Shown: in pieces, positions 11,491-14,230 of the stretch
Layout of the letters: each line of letters starts with the position of its first letter
Position numbering within the stretch: position 1 is the stretch's first letter
IMG/VR virus record: IMGVR_UViG_3300035670_001272
Location: 1-23,325 of that record
Strand: one strand, 5' to 3'
From: a virus
DNA: 23,325 bases
The notes under the pieces: generated by a model
Told to the model about the DNA's origin: nothing
Databases searched by the model: none
Seen by the model: only the letters and a program-made list of their open reading frames with translations
Position numbers and translations under genes: made by a program

Positions 11491-11865
11491 TCACCTCCCG
11501 CCCGCAGGCCGAGCCGGTGCGCCAGACGCAGGCGACGCGCGAGGGATGGGACACTTGCCGTCAGGGCAGCTCGCCCGATTCAGCGCCGCCTTGCACTTGC
11601 ACGTCGACGGGCACGGGCACGCGGTCCGGTGGCCGTCGCCGTGCACGATGTAGCCTCGCCCGCCGCACTCTTTGCAGCAGTCGCCGGGCTTTGGCTGCGG
11701 CCCTGGCTCTGGCTCTGGCTCTGGCTCTGGCGTGGGCGTCGGTGCGTCGGTCGCGAGCGATGCGTAGGCCGCAGCTACTGCCGCAGCTGCTCGCGGTGCC
11801 TCGCGGTCGAGAGCGACCGGGTCGGCGGCGAGGCTCGCCAGCCATGCGAGGAATGCTTTCCACAT
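11491..11865 (-). CDS. Proline/glutamate-stalk protein with cysteine cluster
   Basis: The 124-aa product starts with a weakly hydrophobic segment (MWKAFLAWLASLAADPVALD), then an alanine-rich stretch, a PTPEPEPEPEPGPQPKP stalk (about residues 44-60) and a cysteine-rich part (DCCKECGGRGYIVHGDGHRT, ACPCPSTCKCKAALNRASCP). CxxCGGRG recalls DnaJ-type zinc modules. AGGGGG lies seven bases before the ATG. Codons for the stalk are a six-base tandem repeat. It is the last of five consecutive proteins with N-terminal hydrophobic and proline-containing segments and may act outside the cytoplasmic membrane. The N-terminal segment is too weak to assign topology firmly. Confidence 0.65.
   Translation of the reverse strand: MWKAFLAWLASLAADPVALDREAPRAAAAVAAAYASLATDAPTPTPEPEPEPEPGPQPKPGDCCKECGGRGYIVHGDGHRTACPCPSTCKCKAALNRASCPDGKCPIPRASPASGAPARPAGGR
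11703..11730. repeat. CTGGCT tandem repeat encoding a PEPEPEP stalk
   Basis: CTGGCT repeats about 4.7 times from 11703 to 11730. On the minus strand it encodes alternating glutamate and proline. Replication slippage here would change stalk length by two residues per repeat without changing the frame. Confidence 0.8.
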
Positions 11866-11866
11866 T

Positions 11867-12121
11867 TCACCACCCCCTGCCGTGGTCGACGATTGGCTGG
11901 CCGTCCTTCGTTGCGAGATGCTCAGGCTGCGGCTCTGGTGCCGGCGGCGGCTCGACGAACAGGCTCACCCAGAGCAGCGTGCGGGCCGTCTTGGCGATCC
12001 AACGAAGAATAGGGCGGTTGTCGAGCGGCTCGGGTTTGTCGGGCTTGCTGCCGCCGGCCGACCACCAGCCCACGCAGAGGCACACGAAACACACGATGAG
12101 CGTCTTACGGTCGAGGTTCAT
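11867..12121 (-). CDS. Small membrane protein of the lysis-like cluster
   Basis: The 84-aa product begins MNLDRKTLIVCFVCLCVGWW, a clear hydrophobic segment with two cysteines, followed by SAGGSKPDKPEPLD. A second amphipathic or hydrophobic part follows (ILRWIAKTARTLLWVSLFV), then a proline-rich PPPAPEPQPE stretch. GGAGA lies nine bases before the ATG. It overlaps the protease gene by 17 bases. A small cysteine-containing membrane protein next to a lysis-type protease could be holin- or spanin-like; it has no clear lipobox. Confidence 0.6.
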   Translation of the reverse strand: MNLDRKTLIVCFVCLCVGWWSAGGSKPDKPEPLDNRPILRWIAKTARTLLWVSLFVEPPPAPEPQPEHLATKDGQPIVDHGRGW

Positions 12122-13172
12122 TCGCTACTGTCTCCGGTCGCAAAGGTGGGAATGGCATCAGCCAGTTGCCGTGGTGCAGGTCTCGGAAGCCGAAGCCGTC
12201 GATGCTGCCGACGGCGAACGAATCGCCAGCTGAGAGCATCCGGTCGGCGGTCGCCTTCTCGACCCAGAATGAGCCGTCAGGCATATCGTCTGGCCAGCGC
12301 GGTCCGCCCACGTAGGTCGGGCCCCATGAGTTGAGGCAGAGAAGGCCGGGTCGGCTGCCGTACCGCACGCCGATAAAGCACATGCAGTGTGCCCACGTGC
12401 CGCTCGCCCGGCAGAAGCCGTCGGCGTCGCGAAGACTGGTAAATCCGACCATAGAGCAGACAACGACCGGGAAACCAGACTCAATCGCCGCACTGGCCTC
12501 GGTCCACGTGCGGACCAGGCTCACGTACTTTGCCGGGTGAGCCTTCGCCTCGGCGTCGAGCTTGCCCTTGTCGCCTTGCCCGCCGTTGCCCCAGTTGCCC
12601 CAATCCTTGGCACGCTTGCTGCTGTACTTGGTCAGGTCGTGGCCGCCGACCTCCTCGCGGTAGATGACGCCCCAGTCACGCGACCACCTCGCGGCAGCGG
12701 CGCCGTAGCTGCCGTCGCTCCACCCGCCGCCGCCCTCGGGCTTGTTGCGTGCCTCGACACGCGAGCCGCCGTAGATGCTCTCTGTTGCCGGTGCGATGGG
12801 CGGCTCGGGCAGCCGGCCGAGATCCCAGTCGACAGCTTGGGCAATCCAGATGCCATGAGCCCAGCCCCACGAAACGCAGTCGCCGATACCCTGGCTGCCG
12901 ACCACGAACGGCTTGCCGTAGCGAGCCTGGTGGGCACGGTAGAGCGGCCGATACAGAAACGTATCGACGCCCTTCGCCTCGCGAATCGCCTCGGCTCCCG
13001 CCTGGGCAAAGAGCGGCTGGTCGAGCTCGGCTAGGAAACGCTCGACTCCTTGCGGGTCCGGTGTGTATCCGAAGTTTTCTTTTGGCGCCGGCACCGGCAC
13101 GTAGTAGAGCGCCAGAACCGCGGCGGTAATGAGCAGCAGGCCGGCCGCCAGGGCGCGTTCACTTCGTTGCAT
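12105..13172 (-). CDS. Membrane-anchored papain-like cysteine protease
   Basis: The 355-aa product has an N-terminal signal anchor (about residues 8-25, ALAAGLLLITAAVLALYY), a short VPVPAPKE linker and a peptidase C1 (papain-like) domain. Visible catalytic positions are Q94 and C99 in SQGIGDCVSWGWAHG, H262 in WAHCMCFIGVR and N281 in LCLNSWG, the full oxyanion-hole glutamine plus Cys-His-Asn set. It should be an active endopeptidase facing the cell envelope. ATG at 13172 has GAGGG nine bases upstream; the TTG at 13190 is weaker. Neighbours are membrane proteins and a holin-like protein. A lysis or envelope-penetration role is inferred. Processing of virion proteins is an alternative, but the anchor argues against it. 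Confidence 0.85.
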   Translation of the reverse strand: MQRSERALAAGLLLITAAVLALYYVPVPAPKENFGYTPDPQGVERFLAELDQPLFAQAGAEAIREAKGVDTFLYRPLYRAHQARYGKPFVVGSQGIGDCVSWGWAHGIWIAQAVDWDLGRLPEPPIAPATESIYGGSRVEARNKPEGGGGWSDGSYGAAAARWSRDWGVIYREEVGGHDLTKYSSKRAKDWGNWGNGGQGDKGKLDAEAKAHPAKYVSLVRTWTEASAAIESGFPVVVCSMVGFTSLRDADGFCRASGTWAHCMCFIGVRYGSRPGLLCLNSWGPTYVGGPRWPDDMPDGSFWVEKATADRMLSAGDSFAVGSIDGFGFRDLHHGNWLMPFPPLRPETVANEPRP

Positions 13173-13608
13173 CTTCGCACGCCCTCGCAACGTCGCGGTA
13201 TGCCTTCACCCAGCGAGCCCGCTGGTCCTTGTCGACCGGGCCGCCACCGACGCCAATCTGCTCGTCGAGGTAGTCGTGGATGGCTTTTCGCACGTGCGGC
13301 TGGCGGTCGCCGATGCTTACGCCACGCATCCGGCCTTCACGGGCGGCGACCCGCAAGTCATCAAACGCCACGCCGGTCTTGAGCCGGGGGCGGTCCTGCT
13401 CGCCGTCCCACTCGATGACCGATGCGATCTCGTCGCACAAGGCCGCGAGGGTCGCTGCGTCATCGGCAGCCGTCGGGCCGACGAACAGCCCACGCAGCGA
13501 GAGGCCCGCCGGCTCGGGCGATGGTGCCGGGGGCGTCTTGTCGCCGCTCGCCAGCCAGAGGATGCCGGCCAGCACCACGAAGCCGCCGGCGATGATGAGT
13601 CGTGTCAC
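13159..13608 (-). CDS. N-terminally anchored protein, unknown function
   Basis: The 149-aa product begins MTRLIIAGGFVVLAGILWLA, a strong signal-anchor or signal peptide, followed by SGDKTPPAPSPEPAG, a proline stalk. The remaining ~110 residues form a charged soluble domain (AALCDEIASVIEWDGEQDRP, RKAIHDYLDEQIG). GTG at 13608 overlaps the previous stop as GTGA with GGGAG nine bases upstream. No cysteine of the lipobox type is present. It precedes the protease gene and overlaps it slightly. It could be an i-spanin-like or protease-accessory protein. Confidence 0.65.
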   Translation of the reverse strand: MTRLIIAGGFVVLAGILWLASGDKTPPAPSPEPAGLSLRGLFVGPTAADDAATLAALCDEIASVIEWDGEQDRPRLKTGVAFDDLRVAAREGRMRGVSIGDRQPHVRKAIHDYLDEQIGVGGGPVDKDQRARWVKAYRDVARACEDATK

Positions 13609-13862
13609 GGCTTGTCGCTCCCGCTCGTCAGGGCGAGCTGCAGGGTGTCGATGGCTTCCTTCTCTTCCTCGCCCAGCTCGTCGGTGGCCACGAGCCGCTT
13701 GCGGACCTCGGCCAGGGCCGCAGTCGCCTCGAGGAAGCCCGGCACGCGTGGCGCAATCGGCGTCGGGCTCACGGGCTCAAACGGCATCGGCTTGGGCGTC
13801 GGCTTCGACTTGGGCCAAAAAAGAATGGCCGCCGCAGCGGCGAGAAGACCGGCAATCGTCAT
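13605..13862 (-). CDS. Small membrane protein with proline stalk
   Basis: The 85-aa product begins MTIAGLLAAAAAILFWPKSK, a hydrophobic segment ending at W-P-K. A long proline stalk follows (PTPKPMPFEPVSPTPIAPRV), then a short helical domain (GFLEATAALAEVRKRLVATD, EEKEAIDTLQLAL). ATG at 13862 overlaps the previous stop as ATGA, with GAGGG seven bases upstream. The membrane-stalk-coil layout recalls spanin-type proteins in general form, but no homologue is recognised. Confidence 0.65.
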   Translation of the reverse strand: MTIAGLLAAAAAILFWPKSKPTPKPMPFEPVSPTPIAPRVPGFLEATAALAEVRKRLVATDELGEEEKEAIDTLQLALTSGSDKP

Positions 13863-14230
13863 GTGGCAGCCCTCACTAGCGGGAGAAGAGATTCGATGGC
13901 ACCGGCGGTCGCCAGCAGCACCAGCTGCCGCACGGTGGGTCGCACGATCATCCAAATCGGCCACGCGATCACGGGCACGACCTTGTCGGCGGTCTCGTCA
14001 AAGAGCATCGCGACAGCGTCGACCGCCCATTTCTTCTTTTGGTCGCCTTCGACCGGGATGGTGTCGAGCGTGGTGATGACGAGCCGCAGCAACGCCACGG
14101 CGAGCTCGGCAAACTCGCTCACGGTCAGGCCGTCTTCTGCAGCCTCGCGGGCCGCCACGACAAACGCCTTGACCTGGTCGCCCAGCGTCTTGATGTCACG
14201 GGCAGCCGAGACTGGCTTGGAGGAAATCAT
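13859..14230 (-). CDS. Holin-like membrane protein
   Basis: The 123-aa product has two hydrophobic regions: FAELAVALLRLVITTLDTIP (about residues 41-60) and a longer C-terminal part, VVPVIAWPIWMIVRPTVRQL followed by VLLATAGAIESLLPLV (about 84-120). Charged KKK and a cytoplasmic-type loop separate them. Size and hairpin-like topology fit phage holins. It directly precedes the proline-stalk proteins and the protease, in the order expected for a lysis cassette. ATG overlaps the upstream stop as ATGA with GGAG seven bases upstream. The holin assignment is inference from topology and context. Confidence 0.55.
   Translation of the reverse strand: MISSKPVSAARDIKTLGDQVKAFVVAAREAAEDGLTVSEFAELAVALLRLVITTLDTIPVEGDQKKKWAVDAVAMLFDETADKVVPVIAWPIWMIVRPTVRQLVLLATAGAIESLLPLVRAAT

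Follow-up and report, generated by a model that had tools for sequence, protein, structure and literature searches.

The window analysed here is a 23,325-base stretch of viral DNA (positions 1-23,325 of the IMG/VR virus record IMGVR_UViG_3300035670_001272), in which six consecutive open reading frames, all on the minus strand and all where they had been placed beforehand, occupy positions 11491-14230 and are referred to as genes A to F:

13859..14230, minus strand: gene A, 123 aa, hydrophobic towards its C-terminus and resembling a holin in its position only
13605..13862, minus strand: gene B, 85 aa, with an N-terminal hydrophobic segment, a proline stretch and a short predicted helix
13159..13608, minus strand: gene C, 149 aa, with an N-terminal TM segment, a proline stretch and a conserved helical domain
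12105..13172 (ATG start), minus strand: gene D, 355 aa, a predicted exported or anchored papain-like (C1-type) cysteine protease
11867..12121, minus strand: gene E, 84 aa, with an N-terminal TM segment, a conserved RPVLRWIAKxAKxLLW segment and a conserved NHGRGW-like C-terminal end
11491..11865, minus strand: gene F, 124 aa, with a weak N-terminal hydrophobic segment, a Pro/Glu stretch and Cys-rich motifs (CxxCxGxG...CPCP and CPDGKCP)

When all 38 gene calls of the window were scanned for hydropathy, only C, D and E exceeded a KD19 of 1.6 within the first 45 residues, with B (1.45) and F (1.23) falling below this threshold. Prolines are frequent within the 25 residues following the hydrophobic segment (9 in B, 6 in C, 5 in D and 4 in E). 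An earlier note, made from the sequence alone, had counted five genes with an N-terminal hydrophobic segment and prolines; B, C, D and E fit this pattern cleanly, but the N-terminus of F shows weak hydrophobicity only (amphipathic or signal-like), which brings the number to four. Gene A does sit ahead of the cluster, where a holin-like protein had been proposed, but it matched no holin or other family, nor anything in phage records, and its one C-terminal hydrophobic stretch is borderline (KD19 1.65). Elsewhere in the window, positions 964-2076 encode a DNA polymerase III beta clamp of the phage itself.

Judged by its active site and modelled fold, gene D encodes a papain-like C1 cysteine protease. 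Although at least 147 relatives were found in viral contigs, the window protein had no sequence match in Pfam, PHROGs, NCBIfam, PDB or 50,697 phage records; the Pfam family PF00112 (Peptidase_C1), which does not match it, was reached by a distant homologue from a Planctomycetaceae MAG (L110, 24.9 bits vs a cut-off of 20.7). Residues Q100, C105, H268 and N287, numbered from an upstream TTG at 13190, are invariant in 32 of 32 non-redundant relatives, and correspond to Q94, C99, H262 and N281 when counting from the ATG at 13172, for which the earlier assignment of C99 as catalytic cysteine is right. The AlphaFold (AF2) model (pLDDT 85, pTM 0.82) has xylellain as its top PDB match in Foldseek (E 2.9e-10), along with many cathepsins B, and together with the invariant residues it bears out the earlier reading of a full Cys-His-Asn papain-like protease. 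D thus shares the fold and Q-C-H-N active site of papain C1A proteases (xylellain, cathepsin B; PF00112), from which it differs by its N-terminal TM segment, its proline linker and its setting in a phage cassette. The anchor precedes the catalytic part and is positively charged on its N-side in 28 of 30 rows, from which D is predicted to be periplasmic, and in distant homologues signal-peptide-like or twin-arginine (Tat)-like N-termini take the place of the anchor. Anchorless single-gene homologues also occur outside any cassette or phage context in two Mucilaginibacter genomes (L108:10061-10975 and L109:9863-10789).

About 80 viral contigs, and prophages of Pirellulales as well, share the gene order A, [B], C, D, E, F. 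Around D, in 88 loci, we found A 77 times, C 85 times, E 78 times and F 73 times, always in one order and one orientation, with the missing genes mostly accounted for by contig ends. The cluster that the earlier note suggested looking for in related phages is therefore present there, and since its order is maintained in some 80 loci and purifying selection acts on D (dN/dS 0.14 vs L003), it goes beyond chance. Gene A is the most widely shared gene among these phages. B is separate only in the closer kin of the window, C being longer N-terminally elsewhere (in many relatives this extended C has B fused to it or takes its place), and the helical domain of C was modelled confidently (AF2 pLDDT 90) with no significant match in a fold search against the PDB. 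At three loci (L075:7149-7376, L079:8720-8947 and L074:3266-3502), D and E are separated by an additional small membrane protein, which by eye resembles GlsB/YeaQ/YmgE (transglycosylase-associated) proteins.

Homologues of D were detected in Blastopirellula marina DSM 3645, in MAGs of Pirellulales and Planctomycetaceae, and in 29 of 297 Pirellulales genomes (the order of B. marina). The best Pirellulales copies read A-C-D-E and then, in the position of F, a thioredoxin-like gene. This occurrence in Pirellulales prophages, including that of B. marina, supports a planctomycete host. One contig binned as Alphaproteobacteria (L107) also carries a D-E-F cassette, and is probably a misbinned phage contig.

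The cassette accompanies three different head modules. A relative of 35,575 bases (G005), circular and complete as judged by a 127-base overlap of its ends, encodes a separate S78 prohead protease (PF04586), portal, capsid and terminase according to a Pfam scan, and its cassette, which lacks gene A, is flanked by the genes for the S78 protease and the capsid, a placement shared by many relatives. In genomes of the window type (G001, which is collinear over its full length with the independent assembly G004), the cassette ends the late genes and the capsid family differs from that of G005. In the B. marina prophage the head set is yet another, the third, and the cassette lies just upstream of the terminase, portal and capsid genes. 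The S78 protease is a separate gene in a second complete genome, G030, as well. These contexts bear on whether D is a virion maturation protease or a virion-borne entry protease. The site between S78 protease and capsid gene is a usual one for maturation genes, but a dedicated S78 protease is present there, the same cassette travels with unrelated head types, and a TM or secretion signal would draw D away from procapsids, so we regard a virion role as very improbable. The more specific candidate of an HK97-type capsid-maturation protease was rejected, given the separate S78 gene, the unrelated head types and the anchored papain fold of D; three head modules and a separate S78 protease in complete relatives indicate that D does not mature capsids. 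Processing of virion proteins by D, alongside a conventional endolysin elsewhere in the genome, had been named earlier as an outcome that would overturn a lysis function, and wherever a capsid-maturation protease was found it was a different gene.

No recognised peptidoglycan (PG) hydrolase appeared in Pfam scans of the circular genomes G005 and G030, of G001 or of the B. marina prophage, among the best 25 of 36 families for G001 and the best 25 of 26 for G030, where weak matches are possibly hidden. Searches by family agree: PF01510, PF01464, PF00959, PF01551, PF08291 and PF05257 gave no match in 16 to 23 virus records with positive controls (PF00182, whose control was silent, was kept off this list), CHAP (PF05257) specifically from 16 records with a control positive in 4 genomes, and a Pfam scan of D was empty. 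The earlier statement that muramidase, amidase and transglycosylase are lacking carried little weight for a 23 kb fragment alone; the complete circular relatives bear it out, and in them no conventional endolysin was found elsewhere in the genome either. A published survey recognised a lytic protein in 97.4% of dsDNA bacteriophages (PMC12596118). A divergent PG hydrolase may be present among the unknown genes of these phages. Earlier literature describing a planctomycete protein wall that resists SDS is summarised in PMC3422733. The host half of the earlier proposal of a planctomycete-type wall is supported by the Pirellulales prophages; its protein-wall half is weakened by evidence that planctomycetes, including Rhodopirellula baltica, have lysozyme-sensitive peptidoglycan (PMC4432640). 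With PG in the wall, there would be a hidden PG hydrolase, a freed host autolysin, or action of D itself on PG peptides.

Among relatives fetched by the G005 capsid, some contigs keep A in place and have the C-D-E-F block replaced. The replacement block contains a secreted trypsin-like serine protease (Trypsin_2, PF13365; E 7e-20) with invariant H102, D133 and S204, whose CxxCxGxG and CPDGRC ends are reminiscent of gene F, as well as small membrane proteins and a 289 aa protein. Trypsin_2 was found in 14 of 16 searched records, the other two being of the papain type, and two complete circular genomes (G030 and G036) are of the trypsin type. At 190 loci bearing A, the protease was of the papain kind in 164 and of the trypsin kind in 16, with 10 loci too short, none having both and none having neither, a ratio that is partly biased as loci fetched by D lean to papain. 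In an independent scan for A (alignment A4 was too diverse for scanning; a subset was used), the papain gene was present in 69 of 69 A-fetched contigs with long enough flanks. Across A-bearing contigs of sufficient flank, we met no case of A beside a conventional endolysin, the neighbour always being a protease. The gene A tree, which rests on only 117 columns, implies three protease changes, of which at least two are forced by well-supported branches. That an exported protease of one class has been exchanged for one of another class suggests that protein cutting is the point of the module, and the presence of either enzyme in every sufficiently long A-bearing contig favours the cutting of envelope protein. 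Adjoining the trypsin-like protease, the 289 aa protein (L129:3632-4501) is highly conserved, without a Pfam match, and displays an invariant NQxPTHECTCHSL and GHAV pattern; from this Gln-Cys ... Gly-His-Ala arrangement, it could be a second papain-like enzyme.

This replacement also weighs on the idea that D is itself an endolysin, i.e. a papain-fold peptidase cutting PG peptide cross-links as CHAP, NlpC/P60 and pseudomurein endoisopeptidases do. Wall-peptide cutting is frequent among papain-fold enzymes (PMC10318531; for Pei enzymes, PMC4592898), planctomycetes have PG (PMC4432640), no other PG hydrolase was found, and the BFVD matches included phage Lysin A entries of weakly similar fold. 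Against this, the fold and active site of D are C1A/cathepsin-like and not CHAP-like, no wall-binding domain was seen, and the same block in sister phages holds an HtrA/DegP-like serine protease of the trypsin type. We know of no PG-cutting member of that family, and consider D unlikely to be an endolysin.

Our preferred reading, which we put at roughly 55%, is that the cassette is the egress (lysis) module of Pirellulales phages, its catalytic part being an enzyme that is sent to the periplasm and cuts proteins. Timing, topology, lysis and substrate are what we infer for it in the following scheme. Late in infection, C, E and D would be inserted into the inner membrane, their bodies facing the periplasm in keeping with their net positive N-termini, and A and/or E would compromise this membrane. 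Envelope proteins joining wall and outer membrane would then be cut by D or, in sister phages, by the trypsin-like protease, and F, Cys-rich or thioredoxin-like, may break or shuffle disulfides of the substrate or keep the active-site cysteine reduced. The broader claim, that one class of phages achieves lysis of planctomycetes through a membrane-tethered protease module with interchangeable cysteine and serine types and a thiol-redox partner, replacing a PG-cutting endolysin, is tentative, and in this full form we would sooner bet against it. Several observations run counter to egress: a protein-only protease would not cut the PG of planctomycetes (PMC4432640), A matches no holin family and is missing from the complete G005, and a place between S78 protease and capsid gene is odd for lysis genes.

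Remodelling of receptors or of the envelope, by which the module would block superinfection or help progeny detach, would likewise explain why all parts are exported or anchored, and the phages are temperate, with an integrase, and carry a cassette that is mobile between genome types. This is rather improbable, as the cassette shares its strand with the late structural genes around it and the phages would be left without any recognised exit module. Lysis is the usual exit of tailed phages, which argues against chronic release through a local path opened in the envelope of a cell that is not killed. A chronic, non-lytic phage has been reported from another planctomycete (PMC10945688), though not as a carrier of this cassette, and no PG hydrolase was recognised here; we think non-lytic release highly unlikely.

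As an egress module, the cassette would resemble holin-endolysin-spanin cassettes, which likewise place small membrane proteins beside an exported hydrolase among late genes; it differs in that the enzyme is a protein protease and no recognised holin or spanin family is present. SAR endolysins have an N-terminal TM tether like that of D, and in lambda the lysis genes lie ahead of the terminase, as the cassette does in the B. marina prophage. The replacement enzyme shares the invariant H-D-S triad of HtrA/DegP-type proteases (PF13365) and is secreted, but it has no visible PDZ domain and is fused to the gene-F-like Cys-rich CxxCxGxG and CPDGRC ends. The pseudomurein endoisopeptidases PeiW and PeiP of methanogen viruses, compared via the literature only, are also viral cysteine peptidases that open a non-standard wall, but they belong to another family, act on another substrate and have no anchored cassette.

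If the preferred reading holds, protease-based exit via envelope proteins would be a new escape route for phages. Complete phage genomes from one bacterial order have no recognised lytic protein, yet strictly keep an exported-protease module. What the planctomycete envelope is made of has been a matter of long dispute. The occurrence of a cassette prophage in the cultured B. marina DSM 3645 makes the egress idea directly testable, and work on this prophage could reveal the proteins that hold the planctomycete envelope together. In one bacterial MAG (L103:3591-11800), the cassette is directly followed by about eight tandem paralogous membrane proteins of about 325 aa each.
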